This document shows, piece by piece, positions 33,275 to 60,179 of a DNA stretch of 64,000 bases. The stretch covers positions 14,808,974-14,872,973 of the forward strand of contig CM055907.1 of the NCBI GenBank assembly GCA_029582155.1, read 5' to 3'. The position numbers and the translations under genes were made by a program. Source of the DNA: Panopea generosa (taxonomy: Eukaryota; Mollusca; Bivalvia; Adapedonta; Hiatellidae). Numbering within the stretch: the stretch's first letter is position 1; each line of letters starts with the position of its first letter. The notes under the pieces were generated by a model, which saw only the letters and a program-made list of their open reading frames with translations, was not told where the DNA came from and ran no database searches.

Positions 33275-33312
33275 TTTCTAGATGAACATAGTGAAGGTCT
33301 GTTAAAGAAAAA

Positions 33313-39375: not shown

Positions 39376-39568
39376 TTACTGACACATATCAAAGCTTTTT
39401 AAAATCAAATCATAAAAATATATTTTATTTGAGAAACATAACATTTTTTTCCTATTTAAGGATAAAAAATTCCACTAATGACAACTCGGGGGTCTGGTCC
39501 AATTTTTTTAACTTAGCCCACATCTTTACTACTTGTGGTTTATAAGATAAAAAATCCTGTTGGTATGT

Positions 39569-39860
39569 TGGGTTTAGTAATCAATGGGAGTCGGTATGAT
39601 GGGTTTAGTATGGTAGTTAGTATGGCAGGTTCAGTATGGCAGTCATTGTGTTGGGTTTAGTTTGGTAGTCGGTGTAGTGAGGCAGTCCGTGTTGCTGGTA
39701 AAGTATGCCCGGTTAAATATGGCAGTAGGCAAGGCAGTGTGTATGTATAATGGGTAAACTTTAGGATGGTATTGTATATTGAGGGTTTAGTATGGCAGTC
39801 GGTATGATAAGTTTAGTATAGCAGTCTGTGTAGCTAGTACATTATGGCAGTCGGAATATG
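39569..39860. repeat. Degenerate GTTTAGTATGGCAGTC minisatellite
   Basis: Repeats of about 20-40 bp around GGGTTTAGTATGGCAGTCGG, with drift (TTGGTAGTCGGTGTAG, GGTAAAGTATG and similar). Confidence 0.8.
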
Positions 39861-41060
39861 GGGTTTTATCTCCACTGGCGAAAGGCTTATGCCATGGTGC
39901 GTTGTACGTCATCTGTCGTCCGTTAGCAGCAGTCTCTCTGAAACCATTAGGCTAATTAAACTCAAACTTCACATGGATATTTCTATTGGATAGGAGACTA
40001 TACAGAAGAACTGTTTTTCGATCTGAAATACAAGATGGCCATCGTTACTAAATATAGTCCAAAACTGATAAAATGTTTTTTTTTCATGAGCCGCCAAACA
40101 GATTTTGTAAATATTTATGTAGTAATGATAACCACCAATAGTTTTATTAGATTTGTTCAAATGGTGTCCATGGGGTTAAAATGGTCCGGCCTGAGGGTTC
40201 AATTAAAGGACACGTGTCATTATAATAATCTTTTTTTTTTTTAAATGAACTGATTTTGCCTATGTTTTAACAGAGGCATGGTTTGGTTAGAAAGGTTCAG
40301 ATTTGTGAAAATGACTGGGTTCCACTGTCTTAAAATTTGGAATTACAAAAATCGTTTTCTTCAGAACTGGTCAGTCAAATTTGTTCATATTTGGCATAAA
40401 TAGTCCCTGTATGTGTAGTGGTTTGAATGAATATAAGAATTTATGGGCTAATATCTATAGGGGCCCTGTAAGGGGACTTAGAATTTTTCATAAGGATACT
40501 ATGAGAAAACAGAAATTTCTCTCTTTTTTTTTATCCATTTGGGCAAAATTATTATTCAAATATAAGGTCTGAAACATCATCTGGTCATAGGAAATAAGAT
40601 TTGGTTCAATTAGGAGAATTGTTTATAATTGATATAGATTATCCATCATATGGGTTTAAAGTTTGTACAAATGAATGGGCTTGTATATATAGGGGCCCTG
40701 TAAGGGGACTTTGAGCTTTATATAGGAATACTATGGGAAAACGGAAAATTCTAATTTTTTCATCCGTTTATGATTTCATTTTTATTCAATTTTAATTCTG
40801 AAGCATCTTCAATTCATAACAAATAAGATTTTGTTCAATAAGAAGGATTGACTTTCCAAAAGGGGCCAGGTGCGGTCACAAAATGATTAAAATTGATCAT
40901 TTTGGTAAATCTTATTTTTAACAACCGGTCAGTCAAATTTGGTATCATTTTTATGCGGATGTGACGTAGTCATAGCTGCATATTAGAAACGATTTGCCGG
41001 AAACACTTTTATGTAAAGATCTGGTGTACCACCTTTCGGATTTTTCTTCAGGGATCACTC
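39861..41060. repeat. Unclassified interspersed repeat with internal duplications
   Basis: Contains two copies, at about 40450 and 40684, of TAGGGGCCCTGTAAGGGGACTT followed by TAxGAxTACTATGxGAAAACxGAAA. It also has GGTCAGTCAAATTTG at about 40368 and 40923. The start (CCACTGGCGAAAGGCTTATGCC) and style match middle-repetitive DNA, but I could not define ends or class. Confidence 0.5.
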
Positions 41061-41950
41061 ACAATTACGTATAGATCTAAACAGTCATTATATCTACATG
41101 AACTATGTATCAATTAACTTCTTATTGTGCAAGAAGTACCTAGGTGACGTTTCATAATACAATTCAATTTGCATATAACGTTTATGTTTTCTTTTTTTTA
41201 CCGAAATATTTTAGATGTAATCTGTCTACATATATACTTTGAGAAGACCCCTACTATAGAACTGTGTTATAAAACTTATTGCGTCACTATTCTGACTTCC
41301 CATTGGTTAATGTTTGCATGTGACATAAACAACTAATTTGATTGGTTGTAGTATCAAAGAGCGGCCATTTTTTGGAAAAAAAGAAGCTGACGAAAATTGG
41401 CAACATAAAAGAAATACGAAAGGTGAGAAAATGATAGCAAACTGTACTTTTATATACGTAGTATATGATATAATGTAATATATTTAGACGGTGTCCATTT
41501 CAAGTTGTAGATTGTTTGCTGTAATTTACACATAATTCAGTAGAATTGTTTCGCAAACAGCGTTGACCTAGTTTCTGTGTCTGGCATTGATAGTACCAAA
41601 TTCTTGCCTTGGGACGGGAAATGATTGTGCATCGCAAATATTTTATTAATAAAATGGATCCAACAGGTTGGTGAAAATGTGTGCATAACTTCAGTAAAGC
41701 AAGCCCTTTCTCGGCGAAACTAATTACTCTGCCAGAAGTTAAACAGGTACAGAATTTATGTTGATCATTTTTTAGTCACTTATTAATATTGAATGAAAAC
41801 AGAAATAAATAAACATATACTTGAAAGCCAAGGAAATTTATTGTGAGAAAATGTGATTGAATAACAAGTACGTTTATATTTACGATATGACAACATAAAT
41901 TATTATTATATGAGTACTATGTAAACATGAGAACAAACTGATTATACCAT
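41061..41950. other. Upstream region of the Helentron genes, possible 5' UTR exon
   Basis: At about 41362 GAGCGGCCATTTTTTGG leads to AAATACGAAAG|GTGAGA, a good donor at about 41422. This could be a promoter and noncoding first exon, but no matching acceptor before the start codon is proven. The true 5' end of the element is not visible to me. Confidence 0.3.
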
Positions 41951-42262
41951 GAGAATATACTTGAGAATTGTAGGAACATTTACATGAGACTACTATGCTT
42001 AATTGAGAACTTGAGATTAATCATTGTAACATGAGAATATACTTGAGAATTGTAGGAACATTTATATGAGACTACTATGCTTAATTGAGAACTTGAGATT
42101 AATCATTGTAACATGAGAATATACTTGAGAATTGTAGGACCATTTATATGAGACTACTATGCTTAATTGAGAACTTGAGATTAATCATTGTAACATGAGA
42201 ATATACTTGAGAATTGTAGGAACATTTATATGGAACTACTATGCTTAATTGAGAATGATTTT
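41951..42262. repeat. 82-bp minisatellite upstream of the Helentron coding region
   Basis: GAGAATATACTTGAGAATTG starts at 41951, 42033, 42115 and 42197, an exact 82-bp period, with the fourth copy partial. Copies differ by one or two bases, so expansion is recent. It ends about 200 bp before the protein start. Confidence 0.95.
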
Positions 42263-42458
42263 GTTGTTACTCGAAAGAAAACAAATGTCTGATCGATTTA
42301 CAACGACCGATCGCTAAAAAAGATAAAAGTTGAGCTTTGAATACAGTTGTTAATAGGCCATTTGCCAGTAAACAAAACAGAACTGTTGCTAAAAGTGATT
42401 CTTGTGCAAGTCAATAATTTCAAGTAATCAGTACAAGGTTTTATGCAAGTTCATAATC

Positions 42459-43511
42459 ATGGATGAAGATGTTGTTACTATTACTTTTCAATCTCTTCTT
42501 AAAGCTAGTCATTGTCAGGGACATATGCACTTTTCTGATGCTTCAAGAGGAAAGCAGTGCATGACAAATTGTATGATGTTTTTGTCATATTCTCTTAGGA
42601 AGCAAACTTGCTTGATTGACCGGCAGGATCTAGATCACATACTGGAAGCTGGAGATTATTTGTATAGAGAACTTTCACGTACAAAAAACATTGATGGTTT
42701 ATTGCTTTTTACAGATCTTCCAAATCTTGTGTATTTCGGAAATTTGTATTATAGGTATGGGTTATGTGCAAATTATTTTGGTTCAATGATACCTGGTTTT
42801 TCATCAGAACTTGGTATGTCGTTAGACAATAGTCTGGTTTTGACCTTTACCCTATGTTCTACATGCCTGGTTGTGTTTCATTCTGCTGCAGTTTCTATTA
42901 GAAAGGTTAAGGAAGAATTTTATGTTTTTGATCCTCATAGTAGAGGAGATGACGGTCTCTGTCATACAGATGGAAAGAGTGTTCTAATTCTTCTAACGAC
43001 AATTCCACAGTTGTGTGCATATTTAAGAGAATTGGCGAAATCCTTGTCAACTTCACCTCTATGTTTGGTACAATTTGAAGTGCATGCTGTACACATAAGT
43101 CCGTTAAAGTTTCCTCCTAGACATGAAAATATAGTTCCTGTTACTGTTGGTGACTCGCTTACCATAACACCATCTATACTCGGAAAACGAAAGAAACGGT
43201 CTGTATCATCTTCAATTTTTCCTAGCCATTCTGCTGCCAAATATGTTTTCAACAGTAGCAATACTTTTCCGAAAACACCACGAAAAACTAGTAATAAAGG
43301 ACAGCCTAAAATACCACTAAAAAATAGTAATAAAGGAAAGCCTAAAACCATGTCTTTCAGGGAAGGTATTATAGCGAAATTCAAAGAAGATGTTCGGATG
43401 GGACCAGTATATGTGTGTTCATGTTGTACACAAACCTGGTTCCGGAAAAGTGTTGTGGACGTGCAAAAAATCCCCAAAAAATCTTTGAATGTTCTGTCTA
43501 CAAGGCATTAA
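42459..43511 (+). CDS. Helentron N-terminal protein part: cysteine-protease-like domain and half a zinc finger
   Basis: The frame is open from 42402; I prefer the Met at 42459 (MDEDVVTITF), with 42402 as an alternative. Counting from 42402, residues 45-60 have SDASRGKQCMTNCMMF with a candidate catalytic Cys53, and residues 172-183 have EFYVFDPHSRG with candidate Asp177/His179. This Gln-Cys plus Asp-Pro-His arrangement resembles the tegument-protein-type (peptidase C76) deubiquitinase fold more than OTU proteases, though Helitron-class elements are known to carry OTU-like proteases. A Lys/Pro-rich spacer follows, then VYVCSCCTQTWFRKSV, the first half of a zinc finger. The frame closes at TAA right after residue 369 while the next frame has already opened at 43489. 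Confidence 0.75.
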   Translation: MDEDVVTITFQSLLKASHCQGHMHFSDASRGKQCMTNCMMFLSYSLRKQTCLIDRQDLDHILEAGDYLYRELSRTKNIDGLLLFTDLPNLVYFGNLYYRYGLCANYFGSMIPGFSSELGMSLDNSLVLTFTLCSTCLVVFHSAAVSIRKVKEEFYVFDPHSRGDDGLCHTDGKSVLILLTTIPQLCAYLRELAKSLSTSPLCLVQFEVHAVHISPLKFPPRHENIVPVTVGDSLTITPSILGKRKKRSVSSSIFPSHSAAKYVFNSSNTFPKTPRKTSNKGQPKIPLKNSNKGKPKTMSFREGIIAKFKEDVRMGPVYVCSCCTQTWFRKSVVDVQKIPKKSLNVLSTRH

Positions 43512-46500
43512 AAGTGAAGGTGAAGTTGAATGGATTTGTTTGACTTGCTCCTCAAATATAAAAGAAGGAAAAATGCCAAGATGTGCTGTTGCTAATGGAA
43601 TGGGTTTTCCTACAAAGCCACCAGAACTGGAGTTGACATCAATGGAAGAAAGACTCATCAGTCCAAGAATCCCTTTTATGCAATTAGTTGAAAAACCAAG
43701 AGGTGGCCAAAGAAGTTTAAGAGGAAATGTTGTAAATGTTCCCACAGATGTTAATTCAACTGTAAGAAGTTTGCCAAGATCATTAAATGACATTGAGACT
43801 GTTCAAGTGAAACTGAAAAGAAAGTTGAGTTATTTACACTCGGTCATGTATGAATCAATACGGCCAAATAAATGTGTGAAAGCTTTGAAATGGCTTTTAC
43901 TTCACAGTCCATTGTTCCAAAAAGAAGGAATTGTATTGAATGAAGATTGGCAACTGACAGATCAGGATGATTTCTATGACACAACTAATCAATCTGTAGA
44001 TCCTACAGAATCACTTGAGGAAGCAACTGCAAGTTGTGCATCAAATCAGAACCAAGAAGAATCAAATTGTGAACAGTCTGATGGTTGGACGGAGGTGGAC
44101 AATTTTAATGACCGTCTTACGGGAAATACAGATACTTTACTTCACCCTTCCGATGTTAGGGGCTTAACACCATTGTCATTTGCTCCAGGAGAAGGCCAAA
44201 TACCGTTAGGACTGTTTCAGGACACACATGCTGAAATTCTTTCATTTCCTACACTGTATTGTGGACAAGAGCGTCCATGTAATAATAGTCGTAAAGTACC
44301 TGTTTATTACAGTGACATTTGTAGATGGGAAATAAGATGTTTTGATAGACGAGCAGCTAGTTGTATCCCTAACCTTTTCTTCAAATTAAAAGTTCTCCAA
44401 ATAAAGCAAATTCAAGACAAGGTTTCGCAGGCTATGAGAAAATGTGTGGATGGAACAAAAAAGTTTACAGTAAGTGAAGTCCTCGCTCCGAGTTCTTTTG
44501 ATTCTATCGTTAGATTAAATGAAGGTTACCGGGTTTTACGAACACTTCGTGGATCTCCTGCTTATTGGGAAAGTGCTAAGAAAGACATATTTGCTATGAT
44601 AAGGCAGTTGGGAATTCCGACATGGTTTTGCTCTTTTTCTGCTGCAGAAACAAGATGGATATGTCTATTGAAAGTACTTGGCAAACTAGTAAATAACAAG
44701 ACTTACTCTGATGAAGAAATTAATTCCCTTACTTGGATTCAAAAGTGTGAACTTATTAAAGCTGATCCTGTCACTTGTGCCCGCTATTTTAATAACAGAG
44801 TTCAAATTTTCATTTCTACTGTTTTACAAAGTAAATTGGAACCGTTAGGGAAAATAAGAGATTTCTTTTATCGAGTAGAATTTCAGCAAAGAGGATCTCC
44901 TCATATCCATATGTTAGTTTGGGTAGAACGTGCACCAATATATGGACCAAGTTCTGAGACTGTTTCTGAACAATTTATAGAGAAACACATAACATGTGAA
45001 AAAAACCCTGACATTCCAATCTTGATCAATTATCAAACTCACAGACATGCACGGACCTGCAGAAAAAAAGACAAACCAATATGTCGCTTTGGGTTCCCAT
45101 TACCCCCAATGCCAGTAACTACAATCCTACAGCCACTAGATTCCAAAGACCCACTCCTTAAAAAAGCTTCTGTAGATTTTCAGAAAATCTTTCAAACTCT
45201 GACAGATATAAAGTCATGCGAAGTGCAAGATATGTCTTTCCAAGATTTCTTAGGTTTAGTCCAAATGACAGAAGAGAGTTACATAAAAGCCATTCGTTCT
45301 TCATTGACTTCTCCGAAGGTTTTCTTAAAGCGACTGCCATCAGAAGTTCGTATTAACTCTTACAATGAGAATTTGTTAAGAGCTTGGGAGGCAAACATTG
45401 ATGTTCAATACATCATTGATGCATATGCATGTGCTGCATATATTGTCTCATACATATCTAAAGGACAAAGGGGCATGTCAGCCTTATTGTATGAAGCATC
45501 TAAAGAAGCTAGCAGAGCACATTCAGACTTAAAACAGCAAGTTCGACATATAGGAAACAGATTTCTTACGCATGTTGAAATATGTGCCCAGGAAGCTGCC
45601 TACCTAATTCTACAGATCCCAATGCGCATGAGTAGTAGAGTATGTGTGTTTATTAACACAACTGAACCAGAGAGTAGGGTCTTCCTTTTGAAGCCAAAAG
45701 ACGTTCTTGAAGGCATGCCAATGGAATCCACCAACATTGAATCTGATAATAACATCAAACGGTACCAGCGACGACCAGTGGAATTGAATTCTTGCTGCTT
45801 AGCTGATTTCATGTCAATGTTTCAGATAATTTTGCCTAAAAAAGTAAAAAGGAGGAATAACAGTCGCAGTGCAGACACACTGCCAGAGGAAGATGATGTT
45901 GATGATAACAAAACTGAAGATTTGTTTATATTAGATAATGATGAAACACTTTCAGACAGATCAAAACCAGAAAAAATGGCAAAAACTGTTGATGGTGAAA
46001 AAATAGTTGAATCACTTCAAGACAATGTGTTGACAGAAGAAACGATAGATATTGTCAATGGTGAAGAAATATTAAACCACAATACTGATGAGTACATAAT
46101 GACTGATGGGACAGTTCTCAGAAAAAGAAAGATTGCAAAGGTTATAAGGTATGTACGTTACAGCAAAGCACTTGATCCTGAAAATCACTATCGAGAACAG
46201 TTGATGCTATTTTTCCCTTGGCGGGACGAACTGTTTGATTTAATAGGGGCTTGTTTGACATATGAAGAAAATTATGCTTTGCACATCCACACTATTCGGG
46301 CAAACAGACAAAGATATGAACCACTTGGAAATATAATTGATATTGTCGAAGACCAGGTCTTATTAGAAAATGATTCCAACCTTGTCTCTCAAGAGATACA
46401 ACATACTGAAGAGATAGACAGTCAGCAGCAATCAAATTACTGTGATATGTATGGATGCTTTGATCCAAAACAAACAGATCATACATATGACCTTGCTCTT

Positions 46501-48693
46501 GATTTAGGTATAACCAGAAAGCAATTGAATACGACGGAGATCACCACCATTGGCATGTCTAAAGAGGGTTACATGGATTTAGCAAGGTCATTAAATGAAA
46601 GTCAACAGTTTTTCTTTTACCATGTTCTTCATTTAATCAAAACAAAAGACACTCCACTGTATTGCTTTTTAAGTGGTGGTGCTGGTGTTGGAAAAAGTGT
46701 TCTCACAACTGCTCTGTATCAAGCTGTCACTCGTTTTTTTTCCAAACAGCTTGGTGAATGTCCTGACCACATAAAGGCAGTGCTTTGTGCTCCAACTGGA
46801 AAAGCAGCTCACAATATTGGTGGGAGTACAATTCACTCTTTGTTTTGCATTCCTGCAAATCAAAATTTCACTTACAAACCATTAGATATGCAGCAATTGG
46901 ATACAATGAGAGTGAAGTTTCGCAGTTTAAGAGTAGTATTTATAGATGAAATATCAATGGTTGGTAACAGATTGTTCAATTACATCAACCGTAGATTACA
47001 AGAAATATTTTCATGTACCCAGTCATTTGGAAGGGTTAGTATAATTGCTATTGGAGACTTGTTCCAATTAAAGCCTGTAATGGACAGTTGGATTTTTGAA
47101 GATATCAAGGAAGGATATGGGCCCCTTGCATCCAATTTATGGAAAGAACATTTCCAAATGTTTGAACTGAATGAAATCATGCGACAAAAAGACGATAGGC
47201 AATTTGCTGAGTTGTTAAATAGGTTACGTGAAGGGAATCAGACAGATAGCGATTTGAAAACTCTGCAAGGTTGTTTAATATCTGAAGAAATTGCTTCTGC
47301 TACAGATATTCCTCACTTATTTACCACAAATAAAGAAGTGAACTCCTACAATGAAAGTGCATATAACAGAGTGGACAATCATTGTAAATGTGTCATTCTA
47401 GCCATAGACACAGTAACGGGAAGTACATCTGAATGCCTTGTAGAAAAGATCAAAAGTCAAATTCCAGATGATCCTGCTAAGACTATGGGTTTATTTAAAA
47501 ACTTGCATTTAGCAGAAAATTTATCAGCTGAGGTGTGTGTTAATGTTGATGTAGAGGATGGTTTAACAAATGGGGCAACTTGTTTAATTAAAAGGCTGGA
47601 TTTCAGAGTTTTGAATTCCAAGAGATGCAGCATTGTGTGGGTTTTGTTCCTAGACAGTAAAATTGGAAGTACCATGAGAACAAAGTATTCACATTTGTAC
47701 AATAGTGGAATATGTCAAACTTGGACACCAATCTTAGAGATAACAAGAAAGTTTAGTGTTGGAAGATATAAAGCATGCTTTGTAACAAGGAGACAATTTC
47801 CTTTAAAATTAGCATCAGCAAAAACTATCCATAAATCACAGGGATCTACTATGAAGGAGGCCGTTTTGCATTTTGGTCAAAGGAAGCAAAATCACATGCA
47901 TTATGTCGGATTAAGTAGACTTCAAAAATTGGAAGGTGTTCACATCCTTCATTTAAATGAACACAAGATGTCGGTTTCCAACTCTGTTGTAGATGAAATG
48001 TCTCGTTTGCGAACTGATGCAAATCTTTGGCCCTGCATTCCATCATTAAAAAATGATTCCTCAAACATGAAAATCATATACCATAACAGCAGGTCCCTTC
48101 ATTTACACATGGACGATTTATTGGCTGACACCAATATGACTAATGCAAACATTATTGCTATTACAGAAAGTAGATTGAAAAGTACAGATTCTCAAGAAGC
48201 ATATGAAATGCCTGGTTTTAACATGTACCGATTTGATGATGAGACTGTAACAGAAAGTAGGTCTTATAAAGGAACAGTCATATACTCTAAGACTTGTATT
48301 TCTGATTTGAGAAATTGTCTTATTCATGATATTGACACAACCATAGCCACCTTCAATTACAGAAACAGTACAGTACAAGCAGTATTTATATATTGCAGCC
48401 CCAGGAAAGCCACTGTATCAAATTTCATGAATTTCTTAGAAGAGTTGATGTTACTATTGAACACAGATAAACCTATCCTTATTATGGGGGACACCAATAT
48501 AGATTATAATAACCAGAAGTCATTGAACCCTGTTTTAGAAAGACATCACTTGCAACAGGTTATGACCAAAGTAACAACAGACTATGGCACCTGCTTGGAT
48601 CATGTTTACATTAAAAACATATATGATAATTTCTCTTGCACTACCCTAGAATCTTATTACTCAGACCATAAACCAATTGTTGCTTTTCTTTAG
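43489..48693 (+). CDS. Helentron Rep-helicase-endonuclease polyprotein
   Basis: A 1734-codon frame with no stop. It begins by completing the zinc finger (EWICLTCSSNIKEGKMPRCA) that the upstream frame starts, so a single +1 shift between 43489 and 43511 joins them. Domains in order: Helitron-like N region (YYSDICRWEIRCFDRR, about residue 275); HUH nuclease RGSPHIHMLVW with His472/His474; catalytic tyrosine region YACAAYIVSYISK (Tyr651/Tyr655 as the paired candidates); an acidic linker around 790-870; PIF1/RecD-type helicase with Walker A GGAGVGKS (Lys1069), Walker B FIDEISM (Asp1153), GDLFQLKPV and TIHKSQGSTMKEAV; and from about 1527 an EEP endonuclease with YHNSRS, AITES, GDTNID, CLDHV and YSDHKP. 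Rolling-circle transposition is the known role of this family. Confidence 0.93.
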   Translation: MFCLQGIKSEGEVEWICLTCSSNIKEGKMPRCAVANGMGFPTKPPELELTSMEERLISPRIPFMQLVEKPRGGQRSLRGNVVNVPTDVNSTVRSLPRSLNDIETVQVKLKRKLSYLHSVMYESIRPNKCVKALKWLLLHSPLFQKEGIVLNEDWQLTDQDDFYDTTNQSVDPTESLEEATASCASNQNQEESNCEQSDGWTEVDNFNDRLTGNTDTLLHPSDVRGLTPLSFAPGEGQIPLGLFQDTHAEILSFPTLYCGQERPCNNSRKVPVYYSDICRWEIRCFDRRAASCIPNLFFKLKVLQIKQIQDKVSQAMRKCVDGTKKFTVSEVLAPSSFDSIVRLNEGYRVLRTLRGSPAYWESAKKDIFAMIRQLGIPTWFCSFSAAETRWICLLKVLGKLVNNKTYSDEEINSLTWIQKCELIKADPVTCARYFNNRVQIFISTVLQSKLEPLGKIRDFFYRVEFQQRGSPHIHMLVWVERAPIYGPSSETVSEQFIEKHITCEKNPDIPILINYQTHRHARTCRKKDKPICRFGFPLPPMPVTTILQPLDSKDPLLKKASVDFQKIFQTLTDIKSCEVQDMSFQDFLGLVQMTEESYIKAIRSSLTSPKVFLKRLPSEVRINSYNENLLRAWEANIDVQYIIDAYACAAYIVSYISKGQRGMSALLYEASKEASRAHSDLKQQVRHIGNRFLTHVEICAQEAAYLILQIPMRMSSRVCVFINTTEPESRVFLLKPKDVLEGMPMESTNIESDNNIKRYQRRPVELNSCCLADFMSMFQIILPKKVKRRNNSRSADTLPEEDDVDDNKTEDLFILDNDETLSDRSKPEKMAKTVDGEKIVESLQDNVLTEETIDIVNGEEILNHNTDEYIMTDGTVLRKRKIAKVIRYVRYSKALDPENHYREQLMLFFPWRDELFDLIGACLTYEENYALHIHTIRANRQRYEPLGNIIDIVEDQVLLENDSNLVSQEIQHTEEIDSQQQSNYCDMYGCFDPKQTDHTYDLALDLGITRKQLNTTEITTIGMSKEGYMDLARSLNESQQFFFYHVLHLIKTKDTPLYCFLSGGAGVGKSVLTTALYQAVTRFFSKQLGECPDHIKAVLCAPTGKAAHNIGGSTIHSLFCIPANQNFTYKPLDMQQLDTMRVKFRSLRVVFIDEISMVGNRLFNYINRRLQEIFSCTQSFGRVSIIAIGDLFQLKPVMDSWIFEDIKEGYGPLASNLWKEHFQMFELNEIMRQKDDRQFAELLNRLREGNQTDSDLKTLQGCLISEEIASATDIPHLFTTNKEVNSYNESAYNRVDNHCKCVILAIDTVTGSTSECLVEKIKSQIPDDPAKTMGLFKNLHLAENLSAEVCVNVDVEDGLTNGATCLIKRLDFRVLNSKRCSIVWVLFLDSKIGSTMRTKYSHLYNSGICQTWTPILEITRKFSVGRYKACFVTRRQFPLKLASAKTIHKSQGSTMKEAVLHFGQRKQNHMHYVGLSRLQKLEGVHILHLNEHKMSVSNSVVDEMSRLRTDANLWPCIPSLKNDSSNMKIIYHNSRSLHLHMDDLLADTNMTNANIIAITESRLKSTDSQEAYEMPGFNMYRFDDETVTESRSYKGTVIYSKTCISDLRNCLIHDIDTTIATFNYRNSTVQAVFIYCSPRKATVSNFMNFLEELMLLLNTDKPILIMGDTNIDYNNQKSLNPVLERHHLQQVMTKVTTDYGTCLDHVYIKNIYDNFSCTTLESYYSDHKPIVAFL

Positions 48694-49076
48694 TTTGTTG
48701 TTCTTACTTTCTGAATATTCAGTGATTATCAAAGCATGTAGCCTACAACTCGAGCTTCAGACAGGTTCATCTAAAGGTTCGGAGCAATATCTAGACTATT
48801 TGGACCAAAGACTTCAGTGTCTGGTCTAGTCTACAGGTCTTCCTTTTGTAAATGGCTGGTTTCAATATTTTGTATCTGGAACAGACTTTAAAGACATGCT
48901 CAATAAAATCAATTTATAAATCATGTTTAAAAAAACTACAGGGTATTCTCAGACTGACTAATATGCAACATACTCATGATCCAATTAGCACACTCCCTAA
49001 TAAATGACTACAAACTACTCTTTTGGCAATAATTGAAGAATTTACTCTCATCAAACACAAGATTTCCAAATAGTTA
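48694..49076. other. Downstream flank of the Rep-helicase gene
   Basis: AT-rich sequence between the stop codon and the TIR element. It contains AATAAAATC at about 48901, a possible polyadenylation signal. Otherwise nothing recognised. Confidence 0.4.
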
Positions 49077-49456
49077 TGGGCCCTTCTCAGCTATTTGGAA
49101 ATAGTAATGGCCGTCACTTTTTAAATTGTATTTTCTATTAGAAATAAGATAAATAAAAAACTATGTTTTAAATTTGTTGTTTGTTAATTCCTCAGATAGA
49201 AAAAACAATATCTTGACTCAATTCTCAGAAAATGGATCAAATTTGTATTTGAAACTTGAAATGTCAAGGAATATCCGTCATCCATTTTGGCTGGAAAATG
49301 AGGGGACTTCAATCATGGCCAAATTTTCCCCTTTTAATCTATATGACAACAGTAAGTCATTTGCTAATATTTAAATGAAATAATACTTGTAACTATTCAC
49401 TATAACTAGTAAATGAATATGTTACAATTGATAAAAAAAACTTGTTAGAAATTGAT

Positions 49457-49679
49457 GCATACGCCTATTACGGCATCCGTCAAAACAAGAAGAGTTGTCG
49501 GCATTAAAAAAAATATATTAATCATGTTGTGATGATCAAAGAACATCCACATGTTTGGAAAACATATTTCCATCGTAGGTTTTAAAATAACACACTTTGT
49601 ATATAACAATGACAAAGCTGTAAAATTCAAATTTTATTCGGGAATCGAAATGTCCGTCAATTCCGTAATTGGCGTATGC
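49457..49679. repeat. Inverted repeat inside the TIR element
   Basis: GCATACGCCTATTACGG (49457-49473) pairs with CCGTAATTGGCGTATGC (49663-49679), 16 of 17. Both arms belong to the same motif family as the AGTAATRGGCGTCAC copies nearby. Confidence 0.8.
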
Positions 49680-51066
49680 CGAGTCACGAATCCACTAAAA
49701 CGATCTAGGGGACTTTTTTATCGGGAGTTAAAATTTGTCTGAGACCGTTTTATGTGTACTACGTCATCGATACCAGTGCAGATTTTACATAAAACAAAAA
49801 TATGGAGGTAAGTTTGATGTCTGTCAACCACTCAGCCAAGTAATGGGCGTCACAGAAAAATTGAATCATTGTTTTATCATCCCAACACAATACTTGTGTA
49901 TAATTCGAAGTAACGATAGCAGTGTACATGGATTAGAGAGATGACACACGGACACACGAGAGTATTCTCCTTACTTTCAGGAGTATTTTAGAAAAGTCGA
50001 GATCGGCAATTACAGTTTGACAGAACTTGTTTGTACGGACATTTTTATTGACAGACATTTATCTGAGAAGTAATTGCCGTTCATGCTTTATTCATATTTA
50101 TTTCATTTTTGATGCTGACTCGATTGAATAAGACTTTTAATGATGATGACTTGGCTGTAGCTGTTGGCCTCTTACATTTAAAGTGTGTGCAGAATATATA
50201 AGAGAAAATATTTTGATTTTTTATTCGGAAATTATGCTTTGACGATGTATGCGTGATAGACTAAATCTGTTAGTATTTTGTCAAGAATAATGTCCGTCAT
50301 CAAATATATGTCAATCATAATTTCCATCACATGCATGAGGCGTTTTATTTGTATTTTTCAGTTAAAATTTTATGTAGCCTTTAAAAACATTAAGAAAATA
50401 TAAACTTTATTCATAATTTTTGGAGCAAGAGACTAACTTCCAACTGTCAACACTTAACTATCAAATAGTAGTTTGGCAGTTATTTTGACCAGACTGTCTT
50501 GTCAAAAGTAATTTTCCAAATACAGAAATGTAATTTGTGATTAGAATTTTAAAGCAAGCATCAGTGTCATCTTTCAAGTGATTGTTTTTTCTTGGAATAT
50601 TAATTGTTAATAGAGTTTTACAATTTAAAATTGGCTTAGCATAAATAATAACAATGTTTGTACTGTTTTCGTGATGGAAATTATGTTTGACATGGTTTAA
50701 AAATAGTTCATTATGTCCAACACATCCAATACTGTTACAGAATAATTTGAATATAAACAAAAGAGTTTTGTCAAAAATGTTAAACCCTATACTGCTTACA
50801 CATATCTCCCTACCCCAAACTTGTGGAGAATGCTGCCACCCCCACCCCCAGTGCAGAAGGCTTTTGAAATAGGTGAAGGACCAGTTTTAATCAAAGTAAT
50901 AAGAAATCATCACATGCCCTACACTGTTTTTTCTTCTATCACAATAAGTATGAAAAATATATGAAAATTGCATGTAATTTCTATGTTGGACTTTGAAGTA
51001 CCATTTTAAATGCCAGTTATTCGGTAAAAGGTACAACAAAAGCTAAATGGTACATTTATTTTGCAG
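49680..51066. other. Interior of the TIR element, left part
   Basis: AT-rich with further NATGTCCGTCA-type motifs near 49651, 50030 (inverted) and 50291. No exon supported. Confidence 0.4.
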
Positions 51067-51164
51067 AATATCCATGATCTCTGTGCACCTACAGCAAAGG
51101 AACCAAAACCTATTAGCAGTAATAGTAATAACTTGACATAAACTCCTGCTGAAAGACCAAAAAG
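51067..51164 (+). pseudogene. Candidate exon 1 inside the TIR element
   Basis: TTTTGCAG| to AAAAAG|GTAAAA. The frame reads DLCAPTAKEPKPISSNSNNL, then TAA at 51139-51141, then TPAERPK, ending in phase 2. The next candidate exon continues it in phase. One stop argues for decay. Confidence 0.35.
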
Positions 51165-51636
51165 GTAAAATAATTAAATCAATTAATTTAGTACACTACT
51201 ATATAATTATATGAGCAGTCTTGCGAGAAAAAAGGACGCGGTCAGACATTTATGACTTGCGTACAACCAGATTAACCTTAACTTTCGTACAGTGTAGTCA
51301 ATATTGTTTGCTATTTCATCAGTGAATGATTTTATTAATTAAAGTTTTAAATCAATATTTGTAAACAGCATAGAGGATCAGGCTATGCAGAAACCTAGTC
51401 TGATCTGGGTCAACATTGGTCACAAAAGTCTGAATTTTTCTCAAGATAAAGATCTATACTATTAAACATAGAGTTCTTTATAAAATGAAATTATAGCTTT
51501 TGCTTGGAGACTTTTTAGTTGTTTTATAAGAATCAAGCTTTCACATACACATATTAACAACTTACACATATAATTTCTGATATATATAACAATAGAGGTA
51601 TGTCTTATATTTAAAACATGCATTTGATGTCATCAG

Positions 51637-51929
51637 GTATCCAGAACAAAGGAAGAATGATCCTGTTTTCAAAGAAAAAGAAAGGCTGAGAAAGATGATT
51701 GCTTGGCACCAAAGAACGGAAAAGCATAATTTGTTAACTTCGCGTCCGTTCATCACACCAAACTCTCAACTAACCTGTCTAGTCTCACAGAGATTGACCC
51801 ACTCTCGACTGACCCGTCTAATAGACCAGCGAATGAAGATTCAATCTTGATGAACATGTCTCCAGCTGTGACTGATGACCCACCCACTACTGTACTATCA
51901 CAGTTAACTGATCATCAAGCTGACCTGAG
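51637..51929 (+). pseudogene. Candidate exon 2 inside the TIR element, frameshifted
   Basis: The acceptor is TCATCAG|. Joined to exon 1 it reads RYPEQRKNDPVFKEKERLRK followed by MIAWHQRTEKHNL, a basic stretch of the type found near the N-terminus of some transposon proteins. A frameshift is needed around 51760-51775 to enter the second half (NLSSLTEIDPLSTDPSNRP, then SPAVTDDPPTTVLSQLTDH), which ends at CTGAG|GTCAGT in phase 2. I do not recognise the family. Confidence 0.35.
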
Positions 51930-52221
51930 GTCAGTATCTATACACCAATGTATTTCATCAAAGCAAGCTTTCAATAGAACTTACTTACTGGTTCATTTAA
52001 GTAGTACTACTGCAGTCAACCATGTAAAAAATCCATGTTGCTAGGTTGTTTAGTGTCTGAATGTATTGAAATGATACTCACCATGATGGTAAATAAAACA
52101 AAATTTCTTTGCAAAAACATTAATAAGTTCTGTACTGATACTCTATTGTAAAAAGAGTTAAATTTATTGTAAATAATTTATAAATTTATAATTTCTAAAC
52201 AATTTGTTATATATTTTTCAG

Positions 52222-52249
52222 TTTGTCTCACCACCTAATGATGAACTAG
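52222..52249 (+). pseudogene. Candidate terminal exon inside the TIR element
   Basis: After TTTTTCAG| one base completes the phase-2 codon and the frame reads LSHHLMMN then TAG at 52247-52249. It is phase-consistent with the exon ending at 51929. Confidence 0.3.
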
Positions 52250-53893
52250 CTGACACCCATGGGATATGGGTCCAGTTTTACAGTCAAGGGCAGGCTGGAT
52301 GTTGGAACAAAAACTTCTTTTTGTCTCCAATTTTGATATTGTGCACCGTCTTGATCAACCAGCCTTGTTACAGATTGGCTCAAGATCTTATTATCATTTT
52401 CTTTTTGTAGTGTCCATAATTATTTAAAGACTCATTAAACTTCCTAAACGGTTGTTTTTAGTTTTAATGCAAGTCAGTTTTAATCTTCACAATAATAGAA
52501 TACATGTTTATTTGATTACTGAGACTTTGCAAATGGAAAAATATATATAAAGCATATTATTAGCTAGTACATAATTATGAACGGGTTTTGTTTACAAATT
52601 AATGTTCGTCTCTTTTCGATAAATACATTGAACAGAAAACGAGGAGTTACTAATTTTGGAACGCCTCGGTTGGTAATATATGATCACTTCATTTCAGAGA
52701 GAAACATAGTATGGTGAACTGTAGGGGATGCAGTTAAAAATTCAAATAACCGTCTGCAGTTTGAAAGTTTTTAAGAACATCCCCTTTGTTCCCCTTGGCG
52801 TATTAATGAACTGGAACCCACAAGCTAATTTATTGCATGTTAGCAACGAATCAACCATATAGAATTAAAAATAAATTTACGCTTTTAATAACTGAACTTA
52901 ACAAACACAATATTGACTATGATAAAGTGATTTGTGACGTAGTGTCGCGTGTGATAGTATCATGCGTATATACAAGGGTTTAAAATATTCAAATGTTTAT
53001 GACAAACAGATGTTAAAAACAAAAAATAATGCCATCTTAAGGTTCCATTTATATCTTGCAGCTATATCTTTAATTATTATCAACTTATAATAACTATTTG
53101 AATTGATTATAGCGTTTGTGTCCTTTATTGTGTTTTACCCAAGTGCAAATCATTCAGATTGGATGTATGTACATGTTTCAATAAAAATCAATAAAAAATG
53201 TTCACCTTAATTGTGTGTTTAATTAGATGAGTAAAATTTGAGAATAGTCCACTTAAATGCATATGGAGTCACAGGTAAAGTTAATTTCTTTACCACTTGA
53301 TACACCACTTCAGGGGTATTCAAATAATATTATTTATTACAAATGATATTGGAGTAATAGGCGTCACTTTTTTTTGGTTGTCAAAATGTCAACAGTAATG
53401 TCCGTACATAAAAGTGTCTATATAATTATTAAATGTCACTTTAACTCTAAAATATAATATGAAAGACATTTGAAGAAATCTGATTGACTTGTCCATAACA
53501 AGATTTTCTATGGGAAAGAGGATCTGCTTAAAGGAAAAAAAGAAATGCAGCCAGGAATAAAAGTAATAGGCGTCACTATTTTTAACTGTACTACAGAAAA
53601 AAAAAAGGAACTTTTTCTTAATGGTAGTTGTTTCCAGTGTATGAAAACCGGATAAATGAATTACTTAACAGTTACTTAATAGTGATTTTGGCAGGAAAAA
53701 ACTGTTTAAAATGAAAATTAGATTTGTCAAGATAATGGGCGTCACTTTGTGGTGTCTTTACTGAAAACAATAAAAAGTTGTTAAATAAGCCCTACGCTAT
53801 CTTTTTATTATCAGTTTAAGCATTTATGATATATCTATAAGTGTCATGAACTGAAATTAAGTGGTTTTATCCATATCTAAAATTTGAGAGATA
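52250..53893. other. Interior of the TIR element, right part
   Basis: AT-rich, with three GGCGTCAC motif copies at 53353-53750 spaced about 170-210 bp. No exon supported. Confidence 0.4.
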
Positions 53894-53921
53894 ATTTCCT
53901 AATAGCTGAGAAGGGCCCTTA

Positions 53922-54474
53922 ACCGACTTCAGGTTGGATGATAACAACAGTTTTAACCGCATATTTATATCGCATATGAAACATGTATATATAAGCAGTT
54001 TGATCACTTTTGCGCAAAGGGGACAATGTGTCATACATAGTTGTGTTCTCTGTACTGAAAGAAGGTGAATTAAAATATAATTCAAAGTTAACCTTTTATT
54101 TAGGTCTAAAACTTTTCCCATCCCTATTCTTGAAAATGGATATCCCTGAGGACATGTATTATATAACACATTTTTTTCTTATTCCAAATTTGATCATGTC
54201 TGAGTGTGAATGATAAAGACATACAACTGGAAATTGGTTTGACATATTAACTTCTCTCATTTTCTTAAGAAATGTTGCTCCTGCAGTACCAACTAGTACT
54301 ATGTCCAACAGATCGTTTTTCTGACTGAAATATATTAATATCACCTTGCTACATTTCCTCACTAAACATTCTGAAATAGTTCTGATCAAAGTTTTTTTTT
54401 CTAAATCAAATGAAAAGTCTTGCTTTGCATAGATAAAAATCAATTTTTCTAACGTCTTTTCTTTGTATTTTCAG
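53922..54474. other. Upstream region of the RPA-like gene
   Basis: AT-rich. The ATG at 54476 follows directly on a CTTTGTATTTTCAG acceptor, so a noncoding first exon should lie upstream, but I could not place it. Confidence 0.4.
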
Positions 54475-54475
54475 A

Positions 54476-54916
54476 ATGTCTCTTAAATCACTTCAAGACT
54501 TGAAGTCAACTTCAAGTATAAGGACTGTGCCTTACAACACGGGACATATCGCAATACAAGTCGTGAAAATTGGTCATACAGCAACCTTCTCGAATACCAG
54601 CTCAGAAGGTGCCATTCTCAATTTTAGTATTGCAGATGGGTCTGGTGCCATGATGGCAAGTTTCAATGATAGAAGTAGGCACAGCAGTGTAAAGGAGGGG
54701 AGGTCCTACCATGTACGGAATTTCTTGCTCAAAGGACAGAAGGTTGTTTTCACGGCCAACACGAAAATCTTGTCAACTCAAATGGTAAAGATAAGTGACC
54801 AGACAAGACTCCAAGCAGTCCATCTGGTGATTCCTCCGTCTCCTGTAAAGACAGTACAGGCTGTCAAGTCTTCGCCAACAAAGGAGATCTGTACTGTGCG
54901 AGGACAGATAGTAAAG
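54476..54916 (+). CDS. RPA-like OB-fold protein, coding exon 1
   Basis: Starts ATG TCT CTT AAA, one base after a TTTTCAG acceptor, and runs 147 codons to GTAAAG|GTATAT (phase 0). HIAIQVVKIGHTATF, ILNFSIADGSGAMMASFNDR and GRSYHVRNFLLKGQKVVFTA follow the beta-strand pattern of an RPA70-type OB fold: Gly-Asp-like turn, xFxIxDGSG, then a YxVxNF strand. The last part, EICTVRGQIVK, starts a second OB fold. The predicted role is single-stranded DNA binding during rolling-circle transposition, on the basis of known Helitron-encoded RPA proteins. The frame is intact. Confidence 0.75.
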
Positions 54917-55582
54917 GTATATAATTTTATTTTGTCAGTCATGCAATTCATACTATGGCATATTATTATTTTCTCAGTCATACTTGACCGTTAAACAATA
55001 TCTTGATGTTGCACAGACTACAGATAAGCAGTATATCTACTTACTAAATGCAATTAAAATACCAAGTTTGCAAACACAAAAAAAGGAATTCTGATTACTC
55101 AAAGATTACATTCCAACCACTGATTCATTCAAAAATACAATTGATTCATTTAAAATATCTTGATGCATGACATTTTACATGTGTTACTTTAGAAGTGGAT
55201 AGAAAGAAATAAAATGGATGTTAACACTAGTTCCTACATGTACCAAATGATACTTGCCAAAGCTGCTTATAACATGTTATATACGAACCGGATCTTACAA
55301 CACTTGCGGTATATGAAGAACTCTCCTCTATGAACCTTCCAGATTTCGACATGGAAGATGGAGAGAAGAGTAGAATGAATTTGAACAAGATAGGCTGACA
55401 AGAAGGGAGTGAATTTGGACAAGTTACGCTTGTTTGATCATACCAATTTAAAATGATGGTTATTCAAAACGTTTGCCTCTATTCTAGTCTCAAGTCTTAC
55501 TCAAAAATAGAAATAACAACAGTAACAGTTGCTTTAAATCATTATAGTGTTACTTATGTATTGTTTATTTTTACTTCTGTAG
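54917..55582. other. RPA-like gene intron 1
   Basis: AT-rich intron, no repeat recognised. Confidence 0.5.
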
Positions 55583-55798
55583 AATGAAGCCATAAGAACT
55601 GTCAATGTTGGTGGGACAGACACCAAAATAAGGACAATTACCCTGGAAGAGGATGGTGAAAAAGTTGACATTACATTGTGGCGCGATCTATCTGAGGCTT
55701 CCTATACTGTTGGCCAGTATCTTGAGGTAGGGCATTGCCTCACAGCTGAATGGCAGAAGGTAGCTGTTCTGAACTCTACCAGGAATACAGTTATTAAG
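55583..55798 (+). CDS. RPA-like OB-fold protein, coding exon 2
   Basis: CTTCTGTAG| to ATTAAG|GTAAAT, 72 codons, phase 0 at both ends. KIRTITLEEDGEKVDITLWR, then ASYTVGQYLEVGHCL and AEWQKVAVLNSTRNTVIK are the middle strands of the second OB fold; the xITLWR plus GxYLxV pattern is like the RPA70 DNA-binding domains. Confidence 0.75.
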
Positions 55799-56320
55799 GT
55801 AAATTATTTAGTAGTAGAGTCCACAGAACTGCTTGCCACTAGACTGATAAAAGATTATTTTTTATTTATTTTTATTTTTTTCATCAATGTTTCATGTTAT
55901 GAGATTGTCAGCCTAAAATTCAGTTTTATGATCTTTGGAAAACTGAAGTTTTATTGTAGACTAACCACAAAGCTTCAGTTTAGACATAAATAGATTTCAT
56001 AGCTTAAGAGCTTAAGAGCTAGGCTCTTGCTGAATATTCTGAGAATGTGCTTCAAAGAAGTATAACCTATATAGATATCATTGATATTTTGCCATTTTTT
56101 TACCATAAAAAATGTGAAGAGTACCACATAATTTGTTACTGTAAATTATTATAAAAGTAGTACATTGAAAGGTATGTTCAATAACTTGTTATATTTTGTC
56201 CCTGTAGTATTCAAAATTTATTGACCAAATCTTGAATTTTAAATGCCAGCTCTAAAATCAATCGTGGTTCAAATAACAATAATGGATACCTATTTATTCA
56301 GTACCAAGAAGAAACTAGTC

Positions 56321-57973
56321 TGGTGTTTTTTCTAGACCAGGAAATGGGGTAGGGAGCAAGAAAAAGGGGCAGGGAGCAAAGTTTGTGCACTATTGGCATA
56401 TCCATTGTCAAACTTTTTCTTTGGTGGTCTCTTTTAATATAGGGTTATCTCCCCCTTACATTATGCATGTGTAAATCACAAGTATTAGAGTTTGAATAAG
56501 AAAGGTGAGAGAAATTCAGAGAGAAGTGAATGTTCTCTATCAGTATGACCAACTTATTATGTTGTGCTTAGTCTTTGTTGAGTAACTATCATATCTGTCT
56601 ATCCAGACTCAGTGGCAGTGTGGGAGCAGGAGTTAGTTTAAAACATTATTTTAAACATTGTCCTTTTCTTTTTTAATGGTTGCTTACTGTCATAACATAC
56701 TATAATGACAATGTCAAGCCTCGAAAGCTATTCAATCCATCCAAAAGAACTTTGCAATATGCTAAATAAATGCAATCTATGATAGCCCTCAAATACCTAG
56801 AAAATTGTAACTAATCAACTATATTTCAAATATTTAAAAAAGCCCACATAATTTATGTTAATTGTTGTTTTCAATACTGTATGTAAATCATGATATGACT
56901 GTCAAAAGAAAATTATATGCTGAATATACACAACCAGTAAGCAATAAGTTTATTAAATTACTATAGTACCCCACCCACATTTTATTTACCTTTAACTCGA
57001 TTTGAATATCAACGTTCACTTTGTCACAGAAGAAAATTTACATACATGCAGTTCCAATTATTGTAAATATATAAAATATTCATAAAATTACCGGAACCTA
57101 AAGCTGACATTATGCAAATCACGGTCTATCGCGAATTCTCTTCAGAAACATAATTGCCACCATTTTGGCAAGAGAGATAATATTCTATTGCTGAAACCAA
57201 GTAAGTTATTTCCCTTTTAAATGTTTAGGGATACCTGCGAATTACGTCATCACCTATTTTTAGATCAAATCACAGCTGATTTTGACCGGAGAGAAAACAC
57301 AGCTTGATGCCGATTAATCCGATAATTGATGTGTTAGTTGATTGTTTATAGGGATAGGGATCAAACTGGCAAGCCAATACAGTGTGATCTTTAGCGACTT
57401 ATGTAAACGGTATACTGAAAATTAGGACAAGTCTACATAGCTTTTCCAGACTGCCAGAGCAAGTGTAAAAGTTTAATATAACGACATTTTCGCTAGCTTG
57501 GACCCTGAATTCCTTTGTAATTAACCTATAGAAGTCATATAATAAGCACAAACGCTTATTCTCAGTAAACAGATCTGTAACACCTTTATATATAATGCAT
57601 TTAGTTTCCGAAATATGCGCATCGGAAAAAAACATGATATTTTACCCATAAACTAACTTCAAAAGTCACTGGAGTGTGACGTCATTTGCTGTATCCACAG
57701 GCGACAAGGACCTGATTAGCTAAATGTTACATATTTCGCAAGAGAATGACTGGTGAATACCTGTGTATTCGGGTCAAACGTGTCATATCAGTTAACTATC
57801 GGCAAATGCTTAACACATATATGTGATTGACATTTGGTTTGTTTATATACGACTTGTAATTGGGGCAGCAGGGCGCATTTAAACAAAGAAGGGTGGCGTT
57901 TTTAGGGCAGAAGGGCGGAGCCTAAAAGGGGCTGGGCGCTGCGCCCTTTCATTCCGCTCTAGAAAAAACCCTA
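56321..57973. mobile_element. 1.65-kb TIR element in RPA-like gene intron 2
   Basis: TGGTGTTTTTTCTAGA (56321-56336) pairs with TCTAGAAAAAACCCTA (57958-57973), 14 of 16. TAGTC lies on both outer sides (56316-56320 and 57974-57978), a possible short target duplication. Just inside are G-rich blocks (GGGGTAGGGAGC; GGGCAGAAGGGCGG, GGGCGCTGCGCCC). No transposase was recognised; a small open stretch at 57399-57635 (minus) is unassigned. hAT-like by end style, uncertain. Confidence 0.65.
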
Positions 57974-57978
57974 TAGTC

Positions 57979-58649
57979 ATTGTTGTCTATTACTGAAGGC
58001 AGTCTTCCATAATTAAAGACAATTTTGAAATAGTGTATGGATAGACTTTATAAGTACTCTCTGATACCCCTTTTAATGAAACATTAAATAAAAAATACAC
58101 TTTACCCCGTTAGTTATGGAATAAATAACTCAAAGTATGTCCTTGTTAAATAACAAATAAAGAGCTTGTTAAGGGATGTAACCTACTATCAAAATCCCGA
58201 CATAGTTGCTTCCCTTAGTGCGCAGAATTGTTGCACATAAACAACTACAGAAATTGTCTTTGAAACATTTCACACCTTATACTGGATTCAAATCCAGTCT
58301 CTAACAATGCACTGTATGTAAGATAGTTTGCCAGTGATTAGTAAGTGGACTATATGGTACTACTCATATGACAGTATGCATGAGCAATCATTTATAAAGA
58401 AGAAAAAGTGCATATTTTATACAAAAAGATTACAATAAAACTAAACTTTTAACAATTAATGTCAACCTTGCTTTTATTTTCTATGCAATGAATGTATTCA
58501 TCTGACATAATCACCAATAATGGACCCATTCACGTTTCTTTCTTTTCATTCAATGATTTAACATATAAACTGAACACATAATTATACTTTTGTATTCAAT
58601 GCCGTTCAAATTTGTACAAAATCGTTAACTGTGCATTATGTATTCTTAG
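57979..58649. other. RPA-like gene intron 2, right part
   Basis: AT-rich, nothing recognised. Confidence 0.4.
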
Positions 58650-58904
58650 GACATTGAAGCCCCAGTAGTCACACTAACTGGCTCCATTGAGGGAGTCACA
58701 GTTGGAGACCTGACAGTCGAGATAGCAGTTGATATTGAAAATGATGGTGGGTTCAAGGACTTTACAATTGAAATGGACATCTTACAAAGTATCATTACGA
58801 TAGACAGCAACAGTGACTTGGAAGAGAGTATTCTGGGATTACTGCCAATTCCAGTATGCTTTGATGTGAGGGGAAGTGACATTCTGGCAGCACGTGCACC
58901 ATAA
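58650..58904 (+). CDS. RPA-like OB-fold protein, coding exon 3 and stop
   Basis: TATTCTTAG| followed by 84 codons and TAA at 58902-58904, phase 0. VVTLTGSIEGVTVGDLTVEI and FTIEMDILQSIITIDSN continue the beta-rich protein, and the C-terminus is PVCFDVRGSDILAARAP. No stop or frameshift in any of the three exons; the full product would be 303 residues, shorter than cellular RPA70 but in the range of Helitron-encoded RPA-like proteins. Confidence 0.72.
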   Translation, partial: DIEAPVVTLTGSIEGVTVGDLTVEIAVDIENDGGFKDFTIEMDILQSIITIDSNSDLEESILGLLPIPVCFDVRGSDILAARAP

Positions 58905-59031
58905 ATGCCTTTTTATGAAAGACAAAAGATATAAAATAGCACATTATGGCCCTTGCCTCTCTTTTATTAAAGTAACAGTTTCATTCCATTTATTTATATG
59001 AACAGATACGTTTGTACTTACATTTCGATGT

Positions 59032-59913
59032 CAGGGCTTCTAAAATTTCAAAATGCAAACCGGTCATTTTTTTTTACTACCGTAACAATCGCACATATAT
59101 CGGAAAAATCACTAAAACCAACGTACATGTAAACATACCCCACCCAACATGTCCACCATAATGTTAATGCATTTTCTCACTTTATTAATTAGAGAACTAT
59201 ATCAAGTATGTTTTTGTATTGTGTTATTATGTAGAACTTGCCTTATCACAATTGTTTACTTTTTAATGACTGACATGATGTTTTCGCTTTAATTAATGAA
59301 GAATTCGTTCTGACTGGAATAAAATTTGTGTGTATCGTATAACCGGAAGTCCAGTTACCCTAAATAGCGAAAATGTTTTTTTTTTACGAAAAGGAGCGAT
59401 TAAATCAACATTAGTTAGATTTTTCTATTTAATATTATTTCATTGAAAAGAAAATTAATAACCTGACATTTTTATACGAGTTTATATATAAATTTGAGTA
59501 ATAATAGTATTTTCCATCAATTAAAAAAACAAGTCTAAGGCCAAGTGATTGATGACATAACAGGTCACATGGTTTCTTTAATACTGGTCAATGATTACGC
59601 ATCAAAAGGATGCCTCGATAGATTCTTTCAAGATATTTCCCTAAAATCGGTCATCGACTCTTCCAAATCACAGCAGGCGACAGGCTTATTTACACACAAA
59701 GGAATTGGTGAGCATAACTGTGCCCGAGGTATTTTTCACACTATCAACAGGTCATTAAAGCCAAGATTATGGTTGTTGTCACAATTTTCAGACCTTTATA
59801 CTAGTTCCTTGAAAATTAATGACCCATTTTTTATCATAATATAAAATTAATTTTGGACATGAATTGTTAAATCCGGATAATGTCCGGTCAGACTGAAGAT
59901 TTTAGAAGCCCTG
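59032..59913. mobile_element. 882-bp hAT-like nonautonomous element
   Basis: CAGGGCTTCTAAAAT (59032-59046) pairs perfectly with ATTTTAGAAGCCCTG (59899-59913). Flanks TTCGATGT (59024-59031) and CTCAATGT (59914-59921) agree at 6 of 8 positions, as expected for an aged 8-bp hAT target-site duplication. CAGGG ends fit hAT. A 99-codon open stretch at 59545-59844 has no recognised domain. Confidence 0.8.
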
Positions 59914-60179
59914 CTCAATGTAAATATATATATCAAAAGCTTTTAGTACATTTCTTTTGTCACTTTGTATCTTTGGTTCATTCATGACATTAATATTCAA
60001 GAAAAAGAATGTCAGTAAAGAATTATATTTATATGTTCAAACTTTTTATCAGATTGCATATTTTGTATATAAAAAATTTACATGGCTGTGTGTGATGTAT
60101 TAAAAAGAAAATCCAAGAACAGCTAAATTAACTTCCTAACTCCTGCTCTGAAAGCTTGTAGCTACGCTTTAAAACTTGT

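Follow-up and report, generated by a model that had tools for sequence, protein, structure and literature searches.

In a 64,000-nucleotide stretch of the genome of the bivalve Panopea generosa (contig CM055907.1, forward-strand positions 14,808,974 to 14,872,973; called the window below), the sequence very probably records an aged copy of a Helentron, an element of the Helitron class. The predicted order of its parts is a herpesvirus-tegument-like deubiquitinase (VTD), a Cys-rich motif with DUF6570, an HUH Rep, a PIF1 helicase and an apurinic/apyrimidinic-type (AP-type) endonuclease, with a break of the reading frame behind the VTD and with a separately spliced RPA-like gene downstream.

The core of the element is the largest open reading frame (ORF) of the window, which lies on the plus strand and runs for 1734 codons without an internal stop (Table 1). 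In Pfam it matches DUF6570 (residues 27-153, 2.1e-21), Helitron_like_N (336-477, 3.1e-27), PIF1 (1035-1254, 3e-24), and Exo_endo_phos (1536-1727, 2.5e-07), and it carries the motifs GSPHIH, YIVSYISK, GGAGVGKS, IDEIS, AITESR, GDTNID, and YSDHKP. Its PDB matches include PIF1 helicases with E values down to 2.2e-33 and the Helitron protein Helraiser at 6.2e-14, the latter within the helicase part, and the endonuclease part matches an exodeoxyribonuclease (E 0.0044). An HUH Rep and a PIF1 helicase are combined within one protein, an AP-type endonuclease is fused at the C-terminus, and the accessory cysteine protease that Helentrons occasionally possess (OTU or VTD) is represented by a VTD. Helentrons are distinguished from Helitrons by (F/Y)xR before motif 2 and by an S between G and P in VExQxRG(S)PHxH (PMC4067079), and the Rep frame reads FYRVEFQQRGSPHIH, with the Helentron residues at both places. 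The domain order, these diagnostic residues, and a colinear relative described below support the assignment to the Helentrons. An earlier annotation of the same DNA, the sequence-only reading, had named a Helentron-type Rep/PIF1/endonuclease frame of this length, and the ORF, Pfam domains, motifs, and diagnostic residues all agree with it.

The frame directly upstream, previously called protease-like, can be described more precisely. It is open on the plus strand from 42399 to 43511 (370 codons, first ATG at 42459) and matches the Pfam family Herpes_teg_N. Its first match in the PDB is 8add, with two tegument proteins of herpesviruses next (0.00038 and 0.00078). The catalytic residues of a VTD deubiquitinase align with those of 8add: Cys54 lies in GKQCMT (from 42549) and the Asp-x-His in VFDPHSR (from 42924, residue 176). 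These similarities support its identification as a VTD, nearest in the PDB to the zebrafish Helentron VTD. Zebrafish DrT1 and DrT2 likewise carry a VTD in a Helentron Rep-PIF1 protein with a C-terminal AP-type endonuclease (PDB 8ADD; PMC9741609), and deubiquitinase activity has been shown for the zebrafish Helentron VTD domains (PMC9741609). DrT1 has two VTDs and DrT2 one VTD and an OTU (PMC9741609), whereas the Panopea copy has one VTD, and the proteins of the element have no OTU match in Pfam. A 36-bp coding repeat (2.1 copies, 43272-43348) is situated in the linker between the VTD and the Cys-rich motif. The 82-bp tandem array 5' of the VTD frame is possibly the 5' non-coding part of the Helentron; tandem repeats are frequent in DINE-1-like elements and HINEs (PMC4067079, PMC7492417).

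The VTD frame ends at 43511 and the Rep frame opens only at 43489, in the next phase, and the two overlap by 20 nt in different phases before the VTD stop codon. The N-terminal Cys-rich motif, which is normally continuous in other Helitron-like proteins, is divided between them: VYVCSCC (from 43407) is read in the VTD frame and WICLTC (from 43531) in the Rep frame. Because of this split motif, and because the zebrafish VTD in the PDB comprises residues 300-520 of a protein named ATP-dependent DNA helicase, the VTD and Rep frames seem to be two parts of a single gene that a +1 shift inside the overlap has broken. The VTD and Rep are out of frame here, unlike those of DrT1 and DrT2 (PMC9741609), and this Helentron copy is therefore most likely inactive as it stands. 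The earlier statement that the coding motifs are all intact holds for the Rep-helicase-endonuclease part but not for the VTD half, which is out of frame with it. It seems unlikely that the junction is no lesion and is passed by a programmed +1 frameshift or removed as a very short intron. Both frames are otherwise open over 1734 and 370 codons, and the overlap contains no run of three equal bases, which makes a sequencing slip there less likely (A runs lie just upstream). However, no known frameshift signal was recognised at the junction by eye, a 14-nt GT...AG stretch (from 43491) is far below intron size, and none of the relatives extends across the junction. An assembly error here is possible, as is a programmed +1 frameshift, but neither has support.

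A degenerate pattern of the Helentron Rep motif was found in 2 contigs among bacterial and archaeal genomes (L001 and L002) and in 0 viral contigs; both contigs are presumably eukaryotic contamination. L001 (CAMQXY010000195.1), a eukaryote-like contig in a Photobacterium metagenome-assembled genome (MAG), encodes a single colinear Rep-helicase-endonuclease frame of 1533 aa, which aligns with residues 215-781 (34%) and 885-1731 (29%) of the Panopea frame. The HUH, tyrosine, Walker, and endonuclease residues are invariant between the two, including E1560, D1668, N1670, and S1725-D1726-H1727. The frame is already open at the start of the contig, which ends 88 bases beyond the stop codon; the contig would thus show neither an upstream VTD nor a downstream RPA gene. 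In L002, from a sponge-symbiont MAG, Rep and helicase stretches are matched over several frames, and no endonuclease match was found at E 1. In viral contigs, the Rep-helicase-endonuclease frame as query gave 3 stretches and the RPA-like protein 2, with 0 relatives in either case; a two-row alignment gave 161 stretches, one of which (L003) encodes a relative, matched in the helicase region at 27%; and the RPA motif pattern had 0 matches. A tblastn search of phages with the same frame matched 662 records, none covering 80%, and the best 20 of the 662 were all matched in the helicase region.

Some observations weigh against the reading of this region as a Helentron copy with a broken frame. The Rep part by itself matches Helraiser in the PDB with an E value of just 0.03. 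The one-protein interpretation of the VTD and Rep frames draws on the split motif and the zebrafish architecture, and L001 starts downstream of the junction. Within the window, neither subterminal inverted repeats of the Helentron kind nor a 3' hairpin rose above chance. The ends of Helentrons are described as 12-15 bp subterminal inverted repeats, a 3' palindrome, and a T-rich insertion point (PMC4067079). Inverted and direct matches of 40700-42460 with 48694-49072, 53924-54475, and 58905-61500 did not rise above 30 shuffles each, low-complexity matches being dropped from the rows and the shuffled controls alike. A search following the published HINE end anatomy (upstream region 39000-42450) returned one 11-bp pair, at 39043 and 60421, with 3 overlapping matches and 2 mismatches over 14 bp; 30 shuffles gave a mean of 0.4 and at most 3 matches, and the pair was taken as chance. 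A hairpin at 48792-48833 was rejected as the 3' terminal hairpin, being matched or beaten by 18 of 200 shuffles. Neither near 41362 nor after 58904 was an element end found above the shuffled controls, whether or not the RPA-like gene was enclosed.

The RPA-like gene is on the same strand as the Rep-helicase-endonuclease frame, 5.8 kb downstream. As the sequence-only reading had it, the gene has three coding exons and an intact frame of 303 residues: the exons join in phase 0 to give 303 codons plus a stop, and the borders of the two introns, one of 2.85 kb, are GT/AG. A codon model trained on the Rep frame gives exons 1, 2, and 3 positive scores in their own frame (0.12, 0.25, and 0.32 bits per codon) and both introns negative scores in all three plus-strand frames, to which the computation for the introns was confined; for the joined exons, one reverse frame is slightly positive too (0.08). 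Because TTTTCAG directly precedes the ATG, a further upstream exon is likely. The identification of the product as RPA, by the tandem OB folds of the DBD-A/B type that RPA70-like single-strand DNA-binding proteins have, is weak. Its match to the Pfam OB model has an E value of 0.00023 (21.5 bits, under the cut-off of 27), and the whole protein matches yeast Rfa1 (RPA70) at 0.024, more distantly than OB region 1 alone. For OB region 2, a NusA chain that is unrelated (0.64) ranks ahead of Replication factor A (3dm3). Queried by itself, exon 2 matched nothing in Pfam at E 1; for exon 3 taken separately no similarity was found, and the predicted structures are of low confidence (mean pLDDT, the predicted local distance difference test score, 30.9 for exon 1 and 54.8 for exon 2).

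The codon usage of this gene differs from that of the Helentron frames. Its third-position GC over synonymous codon families (GC3s) is 0.409 (296 codons), compared with 0.271 in the Rep frame (1671 codons) and 0.238 in the VTD (340 codons), and among 20000 resamplings of the Helentron frames, matched for amino acids, none reached this value (z 6.5). All three exons exceed what the Helentron frames would lead one to expect (z 5.2, 2.5, and 3.1 for exons 1, 2, and 3), and the largest GC3s among 355 sliding Helentron windows of equal length is 0.332; the Helentron frames are themselves uneven, with a largest z of 3.13 among 36 control windows. Because the introns have background GC (0.31 and 0.33), the difference is not a regional effect. 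Other sets of frames in the window have GC3s values of 0.229 (long interspersed element, LINE), 0.195 (reverse transcriptase-like, RT-like, 26105-26557), 0.355 (putative host exon), and 0.256 (repeated exons). The last three labels are our assumption; a single LINE piece among these sets is above the Pfam cut-off (RVT_1), and the RT-like set and the putative host exon have no Pfam match.

Two explanations of the RPA-like gene are close to equal in probability. In the first, which the sequence-only reading had put forward, a single unit of about 17 kb has the RPA-like protein as a Helentron accessory product, which would coat the displaced single strand, and later insertions (49073-53923 and perhaps one in intron 2) have stretched the unit. 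We give this somewhat less than an even chance. It is favoured by the shared strand, by the short distance from the endonuclease stop to the RPA ATG (only ~0.93 kb when the insert is discounted), and by published precedents. Helentron-Mo of the mite Metaseiulus occidentalis encodes a Rep-helicase-endonuclease of 1881 aa and an RPA of 358 aa, similar in size to the frames described here, and RPA is among the listed Helentron proteins (PMC4067079). Helitrons of zebrafish and of the sea anemone are also reported to contain RPA homologues, and the re-annotation of an RPA from a plant Helitron gave it eight exons (PMC4683698); that Helitron-class elements encode RPA-like proteins, as previously claimed, accords with this literature. 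A single unit is opposed by the codon-usage mismatch, by the lack of ends enclosing the RPA-like gene in the window, and by its two introns, since the mite RPA has none (PMC4067079). For Helentron-Mo, moreover, the ends have been mapped and the number of encoded proteins is given as two (PMC4067079); the Panopea copy, by contrast, has a VTD, its ends were not found, and the RPA-like gene downstream of it has introns and a codon usage of its own. The putative Mothra mother element resembles the present case in having a multi-exon RPA homologue in a rolling-circle element, but it is a plant element without a RepHel gene, and plant and Helentron RPAs are of different origin (PMC4683698).

The second explanation, likewise short of an even chance, is that an independent host gene, or a member of a host OB-protein family, had a Helentron land alongside it. 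Its GC3s exceeds that of the VTD, Rep-helicase-endonuclease, LINE, and RT-like sets (0.195-0.271), exon by exon it stands above the Helentron expectation, and its introns, together with a splice acceptor pointing to another 5' exon, would suit a host gene. However, one putative exon without a Pfam match (0.355) and the repeated exons (0.256) make a poor yardstick for host exons, and an OB protein adjoining a Helentron would be a coincidence. That the gene derives from a different, older mobile element in a pile-up of insertions is improbable: other inserts lie nearby and a LINE fragment elsewhere in the window, but nothing resembling the core of another element was noticed near the RPA exons, and tblastn at E 0.5 found no second copy of the VTD, Rep-helicase-endonuclease, or RPA-like protein within the window. 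Tentatively, an animal Helentron with a VTD, Rep, helicase, and endonuclease could own a spliced RPA-like gene of distinct codon usage, taken up from the host together with its introns and with its reading frame preserved.

Between the two genes, the 4.8-kb insert has 30-nt terminal inverted repeats that are 93% complementary. All of the AGTAATRGSCGTCAC-type sites of the window (5 of 5, at most 2 mismatches) fall inside it, against 0.17 expected; the longest stop-to-stop frame listed in it has 141 codons, and no match to it was found in plasmids. It is an element of its own, separate from the Helentron, and its inverted ends, flanks, and internal repeats confirm the earlier description of a nested element. 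A 12-nt exact inverted pair, ATTTCCAAATAG / CTATTTGGAAAT, spans its left border (49062-49102), where the flank copies part of the insert end. The pair is among the strongest hairpins of 38-63 kb, and its 12-mer has 3 matches in the window (at most 1 mismatch), which 11 of 100 shuffles reach. Perhaps the insert landed in the remnant of another copy, giving this pair. Directly 3' of the RPA stop, a hAT-like miniature inverted-repeat transposable element (59032-59913) has inverted ends CAGGGCTTCTAAAAT and 8-bp flanks TTCGATGT / CTCAATGT that agree at 6 of 8 positions; the inverted similarity extends into the flanks, and the true ends may lie further out.

Table 1. Coordinates in the window of the Helentron, the RPA-like gene, and associated features
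Feature	Position	Strand	Basis
82-bp tandem array, 3.8 copies, 96% matches, directly 5' of the VTD frame	41941..42255	+	repeat detection
VTD deubiquitinase frame (predicted); last ~35 codons include the first half of the Cys-rich motif	42459..43511	+	Herpes_teg_N 4.6e-13; 8add 4.3e-12
Sole stop-free overlap of the VTD and Rep frames, putative +1 frame break	43489..43508	+	frame phases, split motif
Rep (HUH, two-Tyr)-PIF1 helicase-AP-type endonuclease frame	43489..48693	+	Pfam, PDB matches, motifs
AATAAA, possible poly(A) signal of the Rep-helicase transcript, 5' of the insert	48902..48907	+	prediction
Separate inserted element; inverted termini GGGCCCTTCTCAGCTATTNGGAAAT at 49078-49102 and 53894-53918, flanks TTAT / TTAA	49073..53923	.	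inverted repeats
AG of 3' splice-site-like TTTTCAG directly 5' of the RPA ATG	54473..54474	+	prediction
RPA-like coding exon 1, 147 codons, OB region 1	54476..54916	+	yeast Rfa1 1ynx, E 0.0072
RPA-like coding exon 2, 72 codons, most of OB region 2	55583..55798	+	archaeal-type Replication factor A 3dm3, E 1.2, weak, behind unrelated chain
Possible insertion in RPA intron 2, bounded by short inverted pair GTTTTTTCTAGA	56325..57969	.	local score 26, no shuffled control; weak
RPA-like coding exon 3, 84 codons plus stop	58650..58904	+	codon model

The window as a whole is AT-rich (33% GC), contains neither a tRNA nor an Rfam family that reaches the gathering score, and presumably represents an animal genome. 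Outside the Helentron region, a long degenerate (CTAC)n array (5409-7830) shows extreme GC skew and chance open frames of up to 499 codons, and a low-complexity TGT-type trinucleotide array (23279-24088) is open on both strands; its plus-strand frame matches nothing in Pfam at 0.01. Near-identical frames of 45 codons (RRRSGNTTDN.TNQYEIPLAGPSDAVYT...) occur three times, at 15604-15738, 16170-16304, and 17278-17412, each with a tyrosine motif and followed by a stop; they may be the repeated last exons of a receptor gene of the host. Probable LINE remains at 32939-35554 comprise two frames with weak, sub-cut-off Pfam matches and a reverse transcriptase piece (RVT_1, 8e-10).

What is observed here is the domains, their motifs, and their order, and every step of the following mechanism is inferred. 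By analogy with Helitrons, the active-site tyrosines of Rep would serve to nick one DNA strand and to join it, and the helicase would peel the nicked strand off; the endonuclease may help to cut the target, and the VTD, in the role proposed for it in the zebrafish work (PMC9741609), would keep proteins that transposition requires from being degraded. Helentrons with a VTD, Helentrons with RPA, and plant Helitron RPAs with exons are already in print. Among the matches listed from PMC literature (titles and abstract openings), none described an animal Helentron that combines a VTD with a spliced RPA gene. As it stands, the Panopea copy is one more Helentron with a tegument-like deubiquitinase. 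Should the RPA-like gene turn out to move together with the element, this would be a rolling-circle element of an animal that has an intron-bearing gene for a single-strand-binding protein whose codon usage still marks its source, and such a case would be useful for asking how rolling-circle elements acquire accessory genes.

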